In this document: positions 3,550 through 11,804 of the stretch, one piece after another
Layout of the letters: each line of letters begins with the position of its first letter
Numbering within the stretch: the first letter of the stretch is position 1
Origin: Stigmatella ashevillena
GTDB lineage: Bacteria; Myxococcota; Myxococcia; Myxococcales; Myxococcaceae
Direction: 5' to 3'
NCBI RefSeq assembly: GCF_028368975.1
Contig: NZ_JAQNDM010000002.1
Span: 4,458,425-4,522,424 of the forward strand
DNA: 64,000 nt
The notes under the pieces: generated by a model
The model's database searches: none
What the model was told of the DNA's origin: nothing
The model's input: the letters and a program-made list of their open reading frames with translations, nothing else
Made by a program: the position numbers and the translations under genes

Positions 3550-4671
3550 TCAGCCGAACAGCTCTTTCACCTTGGCGAAGAAGCTCTTGGACTGAGGATG
3601 TGTCTCCTCGCCCGCCTCCTCCGCGAACTTCTCCAGCAGCTCGCGCTGCCGGGACGACAGCTCCGTGGGCGTCTCGAGAATCACGCGCACGTGCTGATCG
3701 CCGCGCTGCTGGCTGTGCAGGTGGGGAATCCCCTTGCCCCGCAGCCGGAACACCTTGCCGGACTGCGTGCCGGGCGGCACCGTCATCTTCACCTTCCCAT
3801 CCAACGTGGGCACATCGAGCTTCGCCCCCAGCGCCGCCTGCGTGAAGGAGATGGGCACCTCGCAGAACACCTCATAATCCTCGCGCTGGAAGAGCGGGTG
3901 CTCGCGCACGATGACCGTCACGTACAGGTCTCCGGCAGGCCCGCCCCGGTCTCCCGGCTCGCCCATGCCCGACAGCCGCACGCGGGTGCCGTTGTCCACG
4001 CCGGCCGGGATGGCCACCTCGAGCACCTCCTCGGAGGGCACCTTCCCGGCGCCCTTGCACTTCGGGCAGGGATCCGGAATGAACGCGCCCGTGCCGTTGC
4101 AGTCGGCGCACGTGCGGGACACCGCGAAGAAGCCCTGCGTGAAGCGCACCTCGCCCGAGCCCCCACAGGTGCCGCACGGCTTGGGCGCCGCGCCGCTCTT
4201 GCTGCCCGAGCCCGTGCACGTCTCGCACTTCTTAGGGCGCGGAATCGGGACCTTGGGCCGACAGCCGAACGCCGCCTCCTCGAAGGAGATCTCCAGGTTG
4301 TAGCGCAGGTCCGCGCCGCGGCCCGCGCCACCCCGGCCCCGGCCGCCCCGGGCGCCCCCGAAAATCTCCCCGAAGATGTCCCCGAAGATGTCGTTGATGT
4401 TGACGTTCTGGAAGCCGCCAAAGCCCTCGGCGCCTCCCCCCGAATGGCCAAAGCGGTCATAGCGGGCCCGGCGTTCCGGATCGCTCAGCACCTCGTAGGC
4501 CTCGGAGGCTTCCTTGAACTTCTCCTCGGCCTCGTTGTTTCCCGGGTTGCGATCCGGATGGTACTGAAGCGCGACCTTGCGAAAGGCGCTCTTCAGCTCC
4601 TGCGGATTCACGCCCTTCTGGACGCCGAGTACTTCGTAATAGTCGCGTTTCTGTCCCGACACCGCTGGCAT
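3550..4671 (-). CDS. dnaJ: Chaperone DnaJ (Hsp40)
   Basis: This is a full-length type I J-protein of 373 residues, the co-chaperone that stimulates DnaK ATPase activity and delivers unfolded clients. The J domain occupies residues 8-73 with the HPD motif in YHPDRNPG. A Gly/Phe-rich linker with [11 protein letters not shown] follows. Four zinc-binding CXXCXGXG units are all intact ([32 protein letters not shown]). The C-terminal substrate-binding domain is complete. No grpE or dnaK is adjacent, so this may be one of several dnaJ paralogues, as is usual in myxobacteria. The about 110 bases upstream end at the IS1182-like insertion, which may have changed its upstream context. Confidence 0.97.
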
Positions 4672-4783
4672 CGCTTCAAACCCCTGGATTCCCTGGCTTT
4701 TCGGCCCGCGTCACAAGCCGACACACTATAACGCAGGGTTCAGAGCCAGCAATCCAGGGGGTCGCCGAGCGGCCGGCCCACGG

Positions 4784-5639
4784 CTAGGAGTCTGTTGGGG
4801 TAAGAGGAAGAACCTACTCGACGGGTAGGCGAGGACGTGATGGGGTGTCCTACCCATGAGCAAGGTCTACCGCCCCTACCAGCCGGAGCAGTCGGAACTT
4901 CTGCCGCCCTCGCCCCGGGAGTGGCTGCCCGAAGAGCACTTGGCGTACTTCATCTTGGACACGGTGAAGGAGTTGGAGCTGAAGCCGCTGTTGGAGAAGT
5001 ACGAGCGGGAGCTGAGGGGCTACCCGCCGTACCACCCGAGGATGCTGGTGGGGCTGCTGTTGTACGGCTACTGCGTGGGAGTGGCCTCGTCGCGGCGGCT
5101 TGAGAAAAGGGCGTACGAGGACGTGGCGTTCCGAATCATCGCCGCGGGCCAGCACCCGGACCACACAGCGATTGCGGAGTTTCGCAGGCGGCACCTGAAG
5201 GAGTTGTCTGGGCTGTTCGTGCAGATGCTGGCGCTGTGCCAGAAGGCAGGGCTGGTGAAGCTGGGGCACGTGGCGCTGGACGGCACGAAGCTCAAGGCGA
5301 ACGCCAGCAAGCAAGGCGATGAGCTACGAGCGATGAGCCTCAAGGACTGGATGGCGCGGCGGCTGAGGACGAAGAAAGGCCGGGCAGTGTACGCACGCCG
5401 AAAGGCAGTGGCGGAGGCACCCTTTGGACAAATCAAGCAGGTGCGAGGCTTTCGGCAACTGTTGCTGCGAGGGCTGGCGAAGGCCCGTGGGGAGTGGGCG
5501 CTCATCTGCCTGACCCACAATCTGCTGAAGCTGCACCGAGCCATGGTCGCCGCGTAGCGGCGGGCTCGTTCCCTTGGAGCAAGCAGGCGCCGAGCCGTCT
5601 GCCCGACGCCCCTGGCTCGTTGGCTCAACACACTCCTAG
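4784..5639 (+). mobile_element. IS1182-type element, internally deleted, copy 1
   Basis: The element proper is 848 bp (4788-5635) with CTAG on both sides. The ends are inverted repeats, GAGTCTGTTGGGG on the left against GAGTGTGTTGAGC read inward from the right. The single coding frame is a transposase that keeps the N- and C-terminal parts of the family but not the middle. Copy 2 at 8591-9446 has the same length, so both descend from one deleted form. Such an element would need a transposase supplied in trans. Confidence 0.88.
4856..5557 (+). pseudogene. IS1182-family transposase, internal deletion (copy 1)
   Basis: The frame encodes 233 residues, about half the usual 450-500 of the family. 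The N-terminus is typical (YRPYQPEQSELLPPS, the DUF772-like region with RGYPPYHPRMLVGLLLYGY, then PDHTAIAEFRRRH and VALDGTKLKANAS). It then jumps to the family's C-terminal end (RTKKGRAVYARRKAV, PFGQIKQVRGFR, THNLLKL). The central part, including the second catalytic Asp region, is absent. The reading frame is kept through the junction, so a protein may be made but is not expected to be catalytically competent. It differs from copy 2 by Met instead of Val in the LFVQMLAL segment and one residue near the C-terminus. Confidence 0.85.
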
Positions 5640-5880
5640 CAGAAACGGTCCATGAGCTCTTCGTCCGTCGGGCTCCCCATCCTCTGGCTCACGGACGATT
5701 CCCCTCGAAAAACGTTTCCAGGTCCTCCTGGCTCCCTGCGTCAACGGGGATAACCCAGCGGAAGGACTGGGCAAAGTCCAGCCAATGCCCTCTGGGACGT
5801 TGGGGACTGAGCAGGAATCCCGGTGAGGCGGAAAAGACCCGTGACCGCGCGGCCCCCCGTCCCCCGAGGCCGTGCTACCT
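5640..5880. other. Non-coding or decayed DNA inside the insertion
   Basis: Open frames here have no recognisable domain, and no strong hairpin was seen. It begins immediately after the right CTAG of IS copy 1 and ends where a recognisable Kup fragment begins. It is best read as scrambled remnant DNA. Confidence 0.4.
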
Positions 5881-5964
5881 GGGGTGGTGTTCGGAGACCT
5901 GGGCACGAGCCCCCTGTACGCGCTCCAGGAGAGCTTCCACGGCCCGGAGGCCGTCCCCGCGACG
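5881..5964 (+). pseudogene. kup: Fragment of a Kup-type potassium transporter (N-terminal end only)
   Basis: Twenty-eight codons read GVVFGDLGTSPLYALQE and continue to HGPEAVPAT. This matches the very conserved first membrane segment and following loop of Kup/KUP/HAK potassium transporters, whose N-terminus usually reads LGVVFGDIGTSPLYA. The similarity stops at 5964, where an unrelated FAD-oxidase fragment on the opposite strand begins, and no start or further transporter sequence follows. It is a relic joined by illegitimate recombination, not a gene. Confidence 0.72.
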
Positions 5965-6160
5965 GAGCCTCCGAGGCTGATGGTCTTGTGCTCGGGGACG
6001 ATGATGGGCACGAGCCCATGGCGCAGCGCCGCCCGGACCACCTCGTCGAAGGTGACCGCGGGCTCGGCCGTGCAGGTCATCGCCACCGGATCGATCTCGA
6101 TGATCTGGTCGAGATCGCTCAGGTCGATCTTCTTTCCCTCGAAGGGTCGAGGGGCGCGCA
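5958..6160 (-). pseudogene. Fragment of an FAD-linked oxidase (N-terminal FAD-binding part)
   Basis: The complementary strand encodes FEGKKIDLSDLDQIIEID, then CTAEPAVTFDEVV, LVPIIVPE and ISLGGSVAG. This is the FAD-binding type-4 fold of flavin oxidoreductases of the DHCR24-like group, where GG(S/A)VAG lies at the flavin. It is cut after this motif by the Kup fragment and preceded upstream by DNA that belongs to the riboswitch side. No intact start or C-terminal domain exists. The frame continues beyond both edges of the similarity but without family resemblance. Confidence 0.7.
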
Positions 6161-6257
6161 GGAGGACGCCGCCGGTCCACGACAGGCGCGTGGGTCCGGC
6201 TCCGGCGTCGGCCGTCCCACGCGGCCTTCGACCGCCGCGCACACGGCGTGCACGGCG

Positions 6258-6440
6258 CGCTGGCAGGTCTTCGGACTCGCGGGCATGACCGGTCCCGGTC
6301 ACCTACTGGCCGTCGCTTCCCAGGTCTTCACCCAGTGCTCGTTGACGGCTGTCGGTCCCACTCACCGCTGCGGGGCAGTCCCGGATTCCCACCGGGTTCC
6401 CTGTTGCCACGACCCTCCTGGACGGAGGGTCGAACCAGCT
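6258..6440 (-). promoter_or_regulatory. Cobalamin (adenosylcobalamin) riboswitch, orphan
   Basis: Read on the minus strand, the segment contains the aptamer core GGGAACCCGGTGGGAATCC, then GGGACTGCCCCGCAGCGGTG, a peripheral helix region, and the B12 box AGTCCGAAGACCTGCC just before 6261. These match the conserved pieces of the cobalamin riboswitch in order and spacing. Such switches shut off cobalamin transport, synthesis or B12-independent isozyme genes when the coenzyme is abundant. Here the downstream sequence, starting near 6165, turns into an unrelated FAD-oxidase fragment, so the regulated gene has been lost. It lies downstream of the tetR gene on the same strand. Confidence 0.9.
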
Positions 6441-6556
6441 GCGGGCAACACCATGTATGGGTACGGGTGGCCAATGGCAACACCAGATGGTGGGTCGGCG
6501 TGTCGCGCCCCGGAATCGCTGGGCGTGCCGGGGTCGCCGACGTCCGACGGGAAGCC

Positions 6557-7213
6557 CTATCGGGCCAGGCGGGTCAGCAACTCGTCGAGCAGGGCGCGCT
6601 CGCCCGGGGTGAGGTCGCCCGGGTCGTCGCCGACCAGCGCCCGCAGGGTCAGCGCGGCGCTCGCCCGGGTCGCGGCGGCGCCGGCGGTCGGCGTGTGCAG
6701 CACCCCGGCCAGCGCGGCCTCGCGGACGCGCCCGGACAGGCCGAAGTCCGGTTCCGGCTGTCTGATTAGGGTCAGCGTGATGCCGACGTTGGCGGCGAGC
6801 ACCTGTTCGGCGGCGTCGTCGGCCGGCACCTTGAGAAGACCCCGGACAGCCGCCGCGGTAAACCGCTCGCGCAACGCGGCGTGCGCGGGAGCGGTGACGG
6901 CGCACGGCTTTCCCGGATCGGCGCGACCGTAGAGCAGGCCGTAGAACAAGGGGTGCTCCAACCCGAACCGCACGTGCTTGTCCCAACCCTCGCGCAGGTC
7001 GTGCAGCGGGTCGCCGGAGTTCTCGATCGCCGTGTACTGGGTGAAGCCGTGGTTCGCCACCGCGTCGATCAGGCCCTGCTTGCTGCCGAAGTGGTGGTAC
7101 AGCGTCGGGGCCTGCACCCCGGCGCGGTCGCACACCGCCCTCGTGGACACCGAGCCGCCGGCCTCCAGCAGTTCCGCCGTGGCGAGGAGAAGTCGATCCC
7201 GCGCGTTTTGCAT
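6557..7213 (-). CDS. TetR-family transcriptional regulator
   Basis: This is a 218-residue repressor-type protein. Its N-terminal helix-turn-helix is clear (LLATAELLEAGG, STRAVCDRAGVQAPTLYHHFGSKQGLI). The rest is an all-helical ligand-binding and dimerisation domain with no assigned ligand. I chose the ATG at 7213; an in-frame ATG at 7231 would place the start inside the palindromic operator. It is divergent from the SDR gene, with 57 bases between the starts, so it most likely represses both itself and the SDR gene through that operator. Codon use and sequence resemble actinobacterial TetR/SDR pairs rather than myxobacterial neighbours (inference). Confidence 0.9.
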   Translation of the reverse strand: MQNARDRLLLATAELLEAGGSVSTRAVCDRAGVQAPTLYHHFGSKQGLIDAVANHGFTQYTAIENSGDPLHDLREGWDKHVRFGLEHPLFYGLLYGRADPGKPCAVTAPAHAALRERFTAAAVRGLLKVPADDAAEQVLAANVGITLTLIRQPEPDFGLSGRVREAALAGVLHTPTAGAAATRASAALTLRALVGDDPGDLTPGERALLDELLTRLAR

Positions 7214-7216
7214 GTT

Positions 7217-7256
7217 GCTATAGTACCCCATATAGCGCTATAGTGTGCTCTATAGC
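7217..7256. promoter_or_regulatory. Large palindromic operator between tetR and the SDR gene
   Basis: A perfect 12-bp palindrome TATAGCGCTATA lies at 7231-7242. Around the same centre, GCTATAG at 7217-7223 mirrors CTATAGC at 7250-7256, giving a 40-bp dyad. CTATAG occurs three times, starting at 7218, 7238 and 7250. The site covers the region where both divergent promoters must lie. It is AT-rich against a very GC-rich background, as expected for a TetR operator. Confidence 0.75.
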
Positions 7257-7270
7257 GAAAGGAGAAGGTC

Positions 7271-8101
7271 ATGAGGAACTGGTTCATCACCGGTGGAACG
7301 CCCGGCGGGTTCGGCCCAACCTACGCCGAGGCGGCACTGGAGCTCGGCGATCAGGTGGTGCTGACCGCACGCCGGCCCGCCGAACTGCGGGAGTGGGCGC
7401 AGCCGTACGGCGACCGTGTGCTGGTTCTGCCGCTCGACGTCACCGACGCCAAGCAGGTGCGGGCGGCGGTCCGGACGGCGGAGGAACGGTTCGGCAGGAT
7501 CGACGTGCTCGTCAACAACGCCGGGCGCGGCTGGTACGGCTCGGTGGAGGGGGCTCGTGACGAGCTGATCCGCCGTACGTTCGATCTCAATCTGTTCGCG
7601 GTGATCGAAGTGACGCGGGCGGTTCTGCCGGGTATGCGGGCCCGCGGCGGCGGCTGGATCGTGAACATGTCGTCGGTGGCCGGCCTCGTCGGCTCGAAGG
7701 GGTTCGGCTACTACACGGCCGCGAAGTTCGCGATCGAAGGGCTCACCGAGACACTGCGCCAGGAGGTCGAGCCCTTCGGTGTACGGGTGCTCAGCGTGGA
7801 GCCGGGAGCCTTCCGTACCAGCGCGTTCTCCTACTTCCGCAACGAGCCGGTCGACGAGACCGTCGACGCCTACGTGCCGATGGTCGAGGCCGTCAAGGCG
7901 GCGTTCGTGGAGGCCAGCGGCAACCAGCCGGGTGACCCCGTGCGCGGTGTGCAGGCCGTCATCAGAGCCATGAACGCGCCCGTGCCCCCGCATCGGATCG
8001 TGCTCGGCAACGCTGGCTACGACGTCGTCGTCGAGATGCACGAGACCGCCCTCACCGAGCTGCGCGCGAACGAGAAGCTGTCGCGCGGAGCGGACTTCTG
8101 A
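7271..8101 (+). CDS. Short-chain dehydrogenase/reductase (SDR)
   Basis: This 276-residue Rossmann-fold NAD(P)-dependent oxidoreductase starts at an ATG preceded by AAAGGAG. Visible family features are the cofactor-binding glycine motif at residues 7-15 (TGGTPGGFG, one residue longer than the usual TGXXXGXG), DVTD near 56, NNAG near 85, the catalytic Ser in NMSSVAG, and YYTAAKFA with the catalytic Tyr and Lys. The C-terminus has the SVEPGAFRT motif. The substrate is unknown. TetR-regulated SDRs of this type are common in Streptomyces and relatives. It is the last intact gene before remnant DNA at 8102-8590. Confidence 0.92.
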   Translation: MRNWFITGGTPGGFGPTYAEAALELGDQVVLTARRPAELREWAQPYGDRVLVLPLDVTDAKQVRAAVRTAEERFGRIDVLVNNAGRGWYGSVEGARDELIRRTFDLNLFAVIEVTRAVLPGMRARGGGWIVNMSSVAGLVGSKGFGYYTAAKFAIEGLTETLRQEVEPFGVRVLSVEPGAFRTSAFSYFRNEPVDETVDAYVPMVEAVKAAFVEASGNQPGDPVRGVQAVIRAMNAPVPPHRIVLGNAGYDVVVEMHETALTELRANEKLSRGADF

Positions 8102-8590
8102 CCCGAGAACCCCGCCCGGACGCACCCACGTCCGGCACCAGACCGGAAATGAACGAGATCACTCTGCCCAATGCCGTCCGGAGCTTCATCAAGCATAAGC
8201 ATAAGCACAGGAAGGATTGAAGGCCTGTTGAGAGGTGGTGGACTGGACCGGAGGGGCAGAGAAGGGCTGTTGACGGGGGCCGCCCGAGCAGTGCGCCAGG
8301 TGGGTGGAGAAACCGCGCAGCCCCTTGGGGTACACGTCGGCCCTGGCCGCGCTCCCTTCAGGTGCGCGGCAGGGCTTGGCTCTCTTGGCTGGGGCGGCTT
8401 GAGTCTCAACACCCCGCGGCTTGAGGGGGCGCGCGCGCCGAGGCCAGCCTCGCACCTGCCGGGGGCAGGCCCAGGTGCTCCAGAATCGCCCCCACCCCTC
8501 CCGCCTCCTTCACCTACGCCAACACCCTTAAGCCTGCCTCCACACCTGCCGCAGGCGAGCCTCTGGCCTGGCCAGATGGAGGAGGCCTCC
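8102..8590. other. Gene-poor stretch inside the insertion
   Basis: No intact gene was found between the SDR stop and IS copy 2. A short tandem repeat CATAAG occurs near 8191-8206. The right part holds a decayed IS91-type transposase end (annotated separately). The remainder is GC-rich sequence with open frames of no recognisable family. Confidence 0.45.
8430..8565 (-). pseudogene. Remnant of an IS91-type (Y2) transposase C-terminus
   Basis: On the minus strand the peptide LACGRCGGRLKGVGV resembles the CPRCGGRLK zinc-binding segment near the C-terminus of IS91/ISPsy3-type transposases. After a frameshift, AILEHLGLPPAGARLASAR follows, matching the conserved IL-HLGLP-PAR tail of the same family in the right order. 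The two parts are in different frames and nothing upstream extends them, so this is a decayed fragment. The assignment is from remembered family motifs and needs a database search. Confidence 0.5.
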
Positions 8591-9446
8591 CTAGGAGTCT
8601 GTTGGGGTAAGAGGAAGAACCTACTCGACGGGTAGGCGAGGACGTGATGGGGTGTCCTACCCATGAGTAAGGTCTACCGCCCCTACCAGCCGGAGCAGTC
8701 GGAACTTCTGCCGCCTTCGCCCCGGGAGTGGCTGCCCGAAGAGCACTTGGCGTACTTCATCTTGGACACGGTGAAGGAGTTGGAGCTGAAGCCGCTGTTG
8801 GAGAAGTACGAGCGGGAGCTGAGGGGCTACCCGCCGTACCACCCGAGGATGCTGGTGGGGCTGCTGTTGTACGGCTACTGCGTGGGAGTGGCCTCGTCGC
8901 GGCGGCTTGAGAAAAGGGCGTACGAGGACGTGGCGTTCCGAATCATCGCCGCGGGCCAGCACCCGGACCACACAGCGATTGCGGAGTTTCGCAGGCGGCA
9001 CCTGAAGGAGTTGTCTGGGCTGTTCGTGCAGGTGCTGGCGCTGTGCCAGAAGGCAGGGCTGGTGAAGCTGGGGCACGTGGCGCTGGACGGCACGAAGCTC
9101 AAGGCGAACGCCAGCAAGCAAGGCGATGAGCTACGAGCGATGAGCCTCAAGGACTGGATGGCGCGGCGGCTCAGGACGAAGAAAGGCCGGGCAGTGTACG
9201 CACGCCGAAAGGCAGTGGCGGAGGCACCCTTTGGACAAATCAAGCAGGTGCGAGGCTTTCGGCAACTGTTGCTGCGAGGGCTGGCGAAGGCCCGTGGGGA
9301 GTGGGCGCTCATCTGCCTGACCCACAATCTGCTGAAGCTGCACCGAGCCACGGTCGCCGCGTAGCGGCGGGCTCGCTCCCTTGGAGCAAGCAGGCGCCGA
9401 GCCGTCTGCCCGACGCCCCTAAATCGTTAGCTCAACACACTCCTAG
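8591..9446 (+). mobile_element. IS1182-type element, internally deleted, copy 2
   Basis: This has the same 848-bp length (8595-9442) and orientation as copy 1, with the same inverted-repeat ends and CTAG on both sides. Differences are a handful of substitutions, including the last 25 bases of the right end (AAATCGTTAG here against GGCTCGTTGG). The right CTAG contains the TAG stop codon of the neighbouring minus-strand gene. Confidence 0.88.
8663..9364 (+). pseudogene. IS1182-family transposase, internal deletion (copy 2)
   Basis: The 233-residue product has the same N-terminal DUF772-like part, the same loss of the central catalytic region, and the same C-terminal part as copy 1. The shared deletion junction shows that the deleted form itself was copied, either by transposition in trans or by duplication. 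The frame is open, so transcription and translation are possible, but transposase activity is not expected. Confidence 0.85.
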
Positions 9447-9889
9447 ACGGTCCAGACGCGGTTGACCGTCAGCTCCATTCGAGCAAGTCGCCGCTTGAGC
9501 GCCGCATCCACGGGCCCCAAAGGGGACCACTTGGGCACCACGAAGTGCAGTTCCGCGTTGTAGAGCTTCGCGGCGCTCCCCAGCAGGCTCCACCGGTTCT
9601 CCGCGAGCGCGTCATCCACCATTGAAGGGGTGACGATCTCCAAGATGATGGGCGTGCGACCGGAGTCGGTCTGCCGGCAGGTGAAATCCGGCCGATGATC
9701 CTCGATGGTTCCTGACAAGACCGGCGGTGGCATGAAACCCGGCAACCGCGCCTTGATGTCCGAATACCCGATCGTCCGGAAGTATTCAGCCATGAGCCAC
9801 AGGAGCCTCCGCCGCTCCTCGTCCTCCACGACTGGCTCACAGCCCGGACTGAACAGCGCCTCTTTCTGGTTCGTGTCGTTGATCTCCAT
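9443..9889 (-). CDS. Small conserved protein, possible PD-(D/E)XK-like fold
   Basis: This protein has 148 residues from the ATG at 9889 (MEINDTNQ). It has no signal peptide or membrane segment. The middle reads HRPDFTC, then about 15 residues later PIILEIVTP, a spacing and strand pattern like the Asp and Glu strands of restriction-nuclease-fold proteins, although the catalytic Lys position is Val. Relatives I recall in other bacteria share the GYSDIKARLPG and RTPIILE segments and end close to WTV, so the gene is probably full length. The TAG stop lies in the CTAG that borders IS copy 2. Its function is unknown. Confidence 0.72.
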   Translation of the reverse strand: MEINDTNQKEALFSPGCEPVVEDEERRRLLWLMAEYFRTIGYSDIKARLPGFMPPPVLSGTIEDHRPDFTCRQTDSGRTPIILEIVTPSMVDDALAENRWSLLGSAAKLYNAELHFVVPKWSPLGPVDAALKRRLARMELTVNRVWTV

Positions 9890-10001
9890 GGCTCCCTGAA
9901 GTTGACTGCCCCTCCCTTCCCCAGCAACGAATGGGCCATACCGAGGAGCCTGGCAGGCGGTAGGGTAGGCAAGGAGGCTACATGCAAGCCTCCCGGGTGG
10001 C

Positions 10002-11804
10002 TTGGCCATTGCGGCCCACGGTGCGAGAGTCCGCGCCGCCGTGGCCCCCCGTCCTTCGCCGCACGTCTATCGCCGACTCTTGGGTTACTTGTCGCCTTAC
10101 CGGGGCCTGCTCCTGGCGGGCCTGGGGGCCTCGTTGATGGCCGCTGCGGCCACCTCCGCCTATGCCTGGCTGGTGGGGCCGCTGCTGCGCGCGGTGCTGA
10201 CCGGGGATCCGATCTCGTTGGCGGGGGTGAGCCTGCCCCCGGACCAGATGCTGCGCCGGTTGCCGGTGCTGGTGGTGGCGGTGGCGGCTGTAAAAGCGAC
10301 GGCCCAGTTTCTTCAGGGCGGGTGGATGCAGCGGCTCGGCCAGCGGGTGATGGCGGATCTGCGCCGCTTCCTCTACGCCCGGCTGCTTGCCCAGCCGCCT
10401 GCCTTCTTCGAGCGACGCCACTCGGGGGAGCTGCTCTCGCGCTTCACCGCGGATGTACCGCTGGTGGAGTTCTCGGTGGCGCAGGCGCTGTCCTCGTACG
10501 TCAAGGATGGGATGCAAATCGTGGCGCTGCTCGTCACGTGCGCCCTCATTGACGGGAAGCTGTTCCTGCTCACCTTCGTGGTGATGCCCGCCACGGTGGT
10601 GCCCGTGGCCCGCTTCGCGCGCTCGCTGAAGAAGGTGGCCCTGCGCTCCCAGTCGAGCCTGGGGGCCCTCACCTCGCTCACCGCCGAGCAGCTCCAGAAC
10701 CTGCCCGTGGTGCAGGCCTACGGCGGGGTGCCCCGGGCCCTGTCCCGCTTCGACGAGGAGGCGGGGCGCTACTTCGGGGAGATGCGCCGCTCGCTCTTCC
10801 TGCGCGGCGCCTTCAGCCCCACGGTGGAGATGCTGGGCATCGCCGGCGTGGCGCTGGTGGTGATGTGGGGGGCGCGCGCGGTGTCGGCCGAGCCCGCGCT
10901 GGCCGGACGGCTGCTTTCCTTCGTCGCCGCCTCGCTCCTGCTCTACCAACCGGTGAAGTCCCTGAGCGGCACGTTCTCCCAGGTGCTCACGGGGTTGGTA
11001 GCCGCCGAGCGACTCTTCGCCCTCGCGGATGAGCCCGCCCCTCCGGACGAGGGCCGCGAGGCGGAGCCCCTGAAGCAGGCCCTGGTCCTGGAAGGCGTCC
11101 GCGCCACCTACCTCGATGGCCGCGAGGGCCTGCGCGGCGTGGACCTCACCGTGCCGGTGGGCACCCGGGTGGCGCTGGTGGGCGCCTCGGGTGCGGGAAA
11201 GACGACCCTCTTCTCCATCCTGTTGGGCTTCCTCCCCACCAGCGGGGGCGAGGTGCGCTGGGACGGGGTGCCGCTGCGGGAGCTGAAGCCCTCCAGCGTG
11301 CGCGCGCAGATGGCCTGGGTGCCTCAGGAGCCCGTGCTCTTCTCCGGCACCGTGCGCCACAACCTCCTGCTGAGCCGCCCCGGGGCGAGCGACGCGGAGC
11401 TGTGGGAGGCCCTCACGCTGGCGCACGCGCGCGACTTCGTGAGCACCCTGCCCGCGGGGCTCGACGAGCCGGTGGGCGAGCGCGGCTCCCGGCTGTCCGG
11501 TGGCCAACGGCAGCGCCTGGTCCTCGCCCGGGCCTTCCTGCGCCGTCCCTCCCTGCTGCTGCTGGACGAGCCGACGAGCGCGCTGGACGCGGCCAGCGAG
11601 GCGGCGGTGGGCGAAGGGCTGGCGGCGCTGATGAAGGGCCGCACGGTGCTTGTCATCGCGCACCGGCTCGCCACGGTGAGGGACGCGGACCTCATCCTGG
11701 TGATGGACGCCGGCCGGGTGGTGGAGTCCGGCACCCATGAGCAGCTCGTCGCGCGCCAGGGGCGCTATGCGCGGCTGCTGGGCGAGGGCGCCGTCGCCGC
11801 CTGA
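10002..11804 (+). CDS. ABC-type exporter, fused permease and ATPase (MsbA-like)
   Basis: This is a half-transporter of up to 600 residues that would act as a homodimer in the inner membrane, exporting lipids, drugs or another hydrophobic substrate. The type-1 exporter membrane domain spans about residues 25-310 (YRRLLGYLSPYRGLLLAG onward). The ATPase domain spans about 340-595, with Walker A GASGAGKTT, Q-loop VPQEP, signature LSGGQRQR, Walker B LLLLDEPTSALD and the H-loop AHRL. The start is uncertain: TTG at 10002 or GTG at 10041 fit the frame, while a good ribosome site AAGGAGG precedes an ATG at 9982 in another frame. No partner subunit or accessory gene is adjacent. Confidence 0.93.
   Translation: MAIAAHGARVRAAVAPRPSPHVYRRLLGYLSPYRGLLLAGLGASLMAAAATSAYAWLVGPLLRAVLTGDPISLAGVSLPPDQMLRRLPVLVVAVAAVKATAQFLQGGWMQRLGQRVMADLRRFLYARLLAQPPAFFERRHSGELLSRFTADVPLVEFSVAQALSSYVKDGMQIVALLVTCALIDGKLFLLTFVVMPATVVPVARFARSLKKVALRSQSSLGALTSLTAEQLQNLPVVQAYGGVPRALSRFDEEAGRYFGEMRRSLFLRGAFSPTVEMLGIAGVALVVMWGARAVSAEPALAGRLLSFVAASLLLYQPVKSLSGTFSQVLTGLVAAERLFALADEPAPPDEGREAEPLKQALVLEGVRATYLDGREGLRGVDLTVPVGTRVALVGASGAGKTTLFSILLGFLPTSGGEVRWDGVPLRELKPSSVRAQMAWVPQEPVLFSGTVRHNLLLSRPGASDAELWEALTLAHARDFVSTLPAGLDEPVGERGSRLSGGQRQRLVLARAFLRRPSLLLLDEPTSALDAASEAAVGEGLAALMKGRTVLVIAHRLATVRDADLILVMDAGRVVESGTHEQLVARQGRYARLLGEGAVAA

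Follow-up and report, generated by a model that had tools for sequence, protein, structure and literature searches.

A complete nrdAB-type riboswitch leader without its gene lies in a composite-transposon-like patchwork insertion in Stigmatella ashevillena

The occurrence, in the chromosome of a myxobacterium, of a cobalamin riboswitch with no gene to control, beside a TetR/SDR gene pair and between two IS copies, raises the question of what the switch once regulated, where its neighbours came from and how the ensemble reached its present site. The window, i.e. the whole 64,000-nt stretch analysed, belongs to a 10.0-Mb contig (positions 4458425-4522424), one of the two contigs of a 10.95-Mb genome (features in Table 1). 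An earlier note, made from the sequence of this stretch, had read the arrangement as an acquisition from an actinobacterium, a reading supported by our analysis with corrections on the donor, the parentage of the switch and the vehicle.

Table 1 Positions of the features of the insertion and its boundaries in the window
Feature	Position	Strand	Basis or remark
CTAG target duplication, left copy	4784-4787		Empty-site alignment in G005, G004 and G001
Left IS1182-type copy, internally deleted	4788-5638	+	ORF 4856-5557; 98.3% identical to right copy
kup potassium-transporter scrap	5639-5964	+	Upstream region and first codons, 86-bp deletion; weak K_trans match
FAD-binding oxidase gene fragment	5955-6133	-	FAD_binding_4
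Actinobacterial nrdAB control region, complete	6142-6508	-	76-84% identity to Micromonosporaceae nrdAB leaders
Cobalamin riboswitch aptamer RF00174	6245-6454	-	cmscan, 99.5 bits
Second NrdR-box-like repeat, ACCCATACATGGTGTT	6447-6462	-	Conserved in leader alignment
First NrdR-box-like repeat, CCACCATCTGGTGTTG	6478-6493	-	Conserved in leader alignment
Junction of nrd leader and TetR gene	6509-6553		45 bp; same sequence in congener G004, no other match found
TetR-family regulator	6557-7231	-	TetR_N; likely true start 7213
Shared operator region (predicted)	7218-7257		Palindrome TATAGCGCTATA and outer CTATAG motifs; conserved in actinobacterial orthologues
Classical SDR oxidoreductase	7271-8101	+	adh_short, 3.6e-50; collinear with TetR in about 20-22 actinobacteria
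Truncated third donor gene, first codons	8148-8190	+	DNA match to 8190 in L028, L029 and L040
ISCR/IS91-like element, terminal remnant	8192-8558	-	Many copies across genus and family
Right IS1182-type copy, internally deleted alike	8595-9442	+	ORF 8663-9364
CTAG target duplication, right copy	9443-9446		Empty-site alignments

Comparison with Rfam using Infernal bore out the claim of a complete cobalamin riboswitch on the minus strand, with a full-length match to RF00174 (model positions 1-189) at 99.5 bits (E 1.2e-23), above the gathering score of 31.5. This was the sole Rfam match in the window; the host carries three other cobalamin riboswitches (L001, L003 and L004). The similarity to leaders of many Micromonosporaceae extended far past the aptamer at 76-84% identity and took in two NrdR-box-like repeats and conserved downstream hairpins, together amounting to a control region beyond the aptamer itself. 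The two repeats are spaced by 31 bp in the window, versus 32 bp in tuberculosis relatives (PMC4428469). Among full-length DNA matches of the riboswitch, too, Micromonosporaceae came first (Actinoplanes, 85% over 218 bp), and in these relatives the aligned leader runs into nrdA and nrdB, encoding a class Ia ribonucleotide reductase, with the nrdA start located about 20-25 nt past the point where the longest leader matches stop. Sequence comparison thus identifies the element as the control region of an actinobacterial nrdAB operon, with nrdA as the missing gene. The function of its parent is known: in Streptomyces a B12 riboswitch is established as a regulator of nrdAB, as stated in PMC4991794 (citing Borovok 2006), and such control has been proposed in Propionibacterium acnes (PMC3848588).

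The leader belongs to the same aptamer family as these actinobacterial nrdAB(S) riboswitches (Streptomyces coelicolor nrdABS, as described in PMC4991794, and P. acnes nrdAB, PMC3848588) but differs from them in lacking nrdA, in being cut about 20-25 nt ahead of the start codon and in residing in a myxobacterium. It is followed by eight unassigned bases and then by the FAD-oxidase gene fragment, which begins 112 nt after the aptamer, in agreement with the earlier description of a lost gene replaced by such a fragment within about 100 bases. No gene was found directly downstream of the riboswitch, where the fragment starts at 6133 and neither a Shine-Dalgarno sequence nor an nrdA start could be detected, and the nrdA and nrdB genes that stand behind the leader in relatives are absent from that place in the window. 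The riboswitch is orphaned, having lost start codon and gene and with them any coding output; its aptamer is predicted to be intact and should still be able to fold.

A native myxobacterial origin of this B12 element, lying by chance next to an imported gene pair, is barely credible. Cobalamin riboswitches are numerous in myxobacteria and their aptamer core matches the one in the window at 73-80%, but these matches span just about 145 bp of conserved core, whereas the Micromonosporaceae match spans 365 bp at 76-84% and includes the promoter-side repeats and the expression platform. With the same query, Micromonosporaceae scored 242 bits and myxobacteria 129, and no myxobacterial leader matching the full 6142-6508 region better than the actinobacterial ones was found. 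The ribonucleotide reductase genes of the host, moreover, do not adjoin its riboswitches.

The TetR and SDR open reading frames next to the leader are intact and divergent, with a TetR_N domain of 44.1 bits (cut-off 24) and an adh_short domain of 170.6 bits (cut-off 26.6), respectively. The TetR start is more probably Met7 (7213) than 7231 because the matches of most relatives begin near the former. The spacer between the two genes is AT-rich (46% GC versus about 70%) and contains the palindrome that the earlier note had proposed as an operator. All TetR relatives with 81-89% amino-acid identity were actinobacterial, whereas myxobacterial homologues, other than that of the congener G004, reached 46% identity at best, and no myxobacterial best-match neighbourhood with an intact gene downstream of the switch came to light. 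A 1.55-kb block comprising both genes (6554-8104) is collinear in about 20-22 actinobacteria, mostly at 80-87% DNA identity, and in a maximum-likelihood tree the window and G004 fell inside a 15-row clade (support 95/89) whose named members are all Micromonosporaceae. Judged by these relatives, the pair is actinobacterial and of Micromonosporaceae type; the likeness to Streptomyces-type pairs suggested earlier held for the phylum and not for Streptomyces, the tree and the DNA matches pointing to a Micromonosporaceae-like source.

The divergent TetR/SDR pairs of Micromonosporaceae, Streptosporangiaceae and Pseudonocardiaceae have gene order and operator in common with the pair in the window and are mostly 80-87% identical to it in DNA; the pair in the window differs from them in its host phylum, in the truncation of the third gene and in the ISCR/IS91-like remnant that comes next. 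In L028, L029 and L040 a longer open reading frame continues past the point matching window position 8190. A search for plasmid relatives of TetR returned only matches below 60% identity, and one for a named regulon only weak matches under the cut-offs. No second copy of the operator was detected elsewhere in the window with the one 14-mer variant searched.

Since both the leader and the pair are Micromonosporaceae-like, a single donor outside the sampled genomes could have carried them side by side and passed them on together. This version of our preferred explanation, differing in where the junction arose, we regard as quite possible, if short of probable. A gap of 45 bp separates the two parts, which are oriented so that TetR would stand just upstream of nrdA, and their join is identical in G004. 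However, no match spanning leader and pair was present among those listed for 873 actinobacterial genomes of three families (355, 221 and 297 genomes from the families of G208, G196 and G198, respectively), in which a weak case could have been missed, and the pair had no riboswitch closer than about 6 kb in the 22 actinobacterial loci examined. Where both appeared among the matches listed for one genome, e.g. G510 and G464, they were far apart. A single donor event for leader and pair is weakened by this adjacency having been seen in no sampled actinobacterium among the matches listed. The junction was found only in the window and in G004, in which TetR and SDR persist with only 61 bp of the leader left.

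The remainder of the cargo consists of gene scraps and of a transposon end. Identity of the kup scrap to G001 is 89% in a 244-bp stretch and 99% in one of 84 bp, versus 84% to the intact locus of the host, and the FAD-oxidase fragment is 96% and 95% identical to G001 and G004, respectively, versus 89% to the intact copy that the host possesses. Both are closer to G001/G004 than to the host's own loci, and they meet through a 10-bp shared sequence. The actinobacterial block ends beside the ISCR/IS91-like remnant. In G004, Zn_Tnp_IS91/Y2_Tnp domains are present in the neighbouring copy, which matches ISCR clade Ia below the curated cut-off. Many genomes of the family contain this terminus, with the conserved end GCGTATAGGCGGGATAGAGG, at which the copy in the window carries a hexamer repeat (ATAAGC). 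The idea of a strict IS91 target tetramer next to the terminus was dropped, the tetramer being inconsistent among copies.

The pair and the ISCR/IS91-like remnant are found in G004 at a different location and without IS1182 copies. There (L013, 6715-9295), the TetR/SDR pair adjoins a tyrosine integrase and broken pieces of an ISCR/IS91-like transposase. Contamination or misassembly is unlikely because the pair is present in G004's own, separate assembly at another place. Between the window and G004, dS was 0.022 for TetR and 0.048 for SDR, as against 0.23-0.35 for the flanking ABC-transporter and dnaJ orthologues, and the pair must therefore have moved between the species after their split or have entered both from one recent source. 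The two copies of the pair differ by 14 synonymous and 14 nonsynonymous changes over 398 and 1102 sites, respectively. The excess of synonymous differences (14 of 28 versus about 7 expected, p = 0.007, mutation bias being ignored) suggests that the TetR and SDR proteins are under constraint.

The genes around the insertion are common to the nearest relatives of the host. When joined, the flanks 4728-4787 and 9447-9506 align without gaps to exact empty sites in the congeners G005, G004 and G001, in which the flanking DNA is continuous with a single CTAG, and 4788-9446 is therefore one insertion of 4.66 kb with the arrangement IS-cargo-IS. It lies about 113 bp upstream of the start of dnaJ (3550-4671, on the strand of the riboswitch), and dnaJ may have been parted from its native promoter. 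On the other side, a 188-aa open reading frame without Pfam match (9443-10009, minus strand; 88-94% identical in three congeners) ends exactly at the target site, its stop codon sitting within the duplicated CTAG.

As the earlier note had stated, the riboswitch and the pair lie between two IS copies; in alignment, these copies (4784-5652 and 8591-9454) are 98.3% identical. They appear to be myxobacterial members of the IS1182 family, the match falling under the curated cut-off for the half that was tested. Full-length copies in G005 measure about 1.5 kb, and about 665 bp are missing identically from both copies in the window, neither of which holds a complete transposase. The host genome contains just two copies of this deleted form, and no full-length copy was seen in it. 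Two near-identical copies, a single outer 4-bp duplication and exact empty sites in relatives are features shared with IS1182-family composite transposons, from which the locus differs in the identical transposase-disrupting deletion of both copies. With the transposase incomplete in each copy and no full-length one seen in the genome, transposition would need help in trans. The IS copies had been taken as pointing to actinobacterial import; the import stands, but the copies are no evidence for it, being of myxobacterial IS1182 type and bounding an already assembled patchwork. They represent a later vehicle rather than the means of import, since the pair and remnant of G004 lie elsewhere without IS1182.

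The cargo is a patchwork of a Micromonosporaceae-type nrdAB leader, a TetR/SDR pair of the same type with its operator, myxobacterial kup and FAD-oxidase scraps and an ISCR/IS91-like remnant. Two IS1182 copies with the same deletion enclose it, and the whole is inserted upstream of dnaJ with a CTAG duplication. Taken with the following history and working of the regulators, a composite-transposon-like patchwork insertion is very probably the correct explanation of the locus. Actinobacterial DNA would have entered a relative of G001/G004 and been fused there to other fragments by illegitimate recombination; the fused fragments would then have been bracketed by IS1182 copies and the unit moved as a whole into the host chromosome, or, by an alternative route, a circle may have recombined into a resident IS. 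TetR, from its family and the gene layout, would repress its own gene and SDR from the shared operator until bound by its ligand, and the adenosylcobalamin-bound riboswitch would end transcription or block expression, with no coding target.

Alternatively, the riboswitch might work in place, through a B12-controlled transcript reading through to dnaJ or as a regulatory RNA, given that its aptamer, NrdR-box-like repeats and hairpins are intact and that dnaJ lies downstream on the same strand. This is very unlikely, as the stretch between the two, about 1.5 kb, consists of untranslated scraps and an IS in antisense orientation, and as G004 has retained TetR and SDR with so little of the leader. 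Read-through into dnaJ is possible but unlikely, and there is only a slim chance that a foreign B12- and NrdR-responsive promoter/riboswitch on a mobile element gives rise to a cobalamin-controlled transcript in a myxobacterium. Under the preferred reading of a patchwork insertion, the locus is a well-resolved product of horizontal transfer by known processes and not a new kind of system.

The main addition of this work is to recognise the orphan switch as an nrdAB leader. The locus illustrates clearly how a complete leader of actinobacterial origin can stand without its gene in a myxobacterium, within a patchwork of pieces some of which have spread between species. A covariance-model match to a riboswitch need not imply a regulated gene, and the locus offers a natural test case of whether a transplanted riboswitch remains functional.
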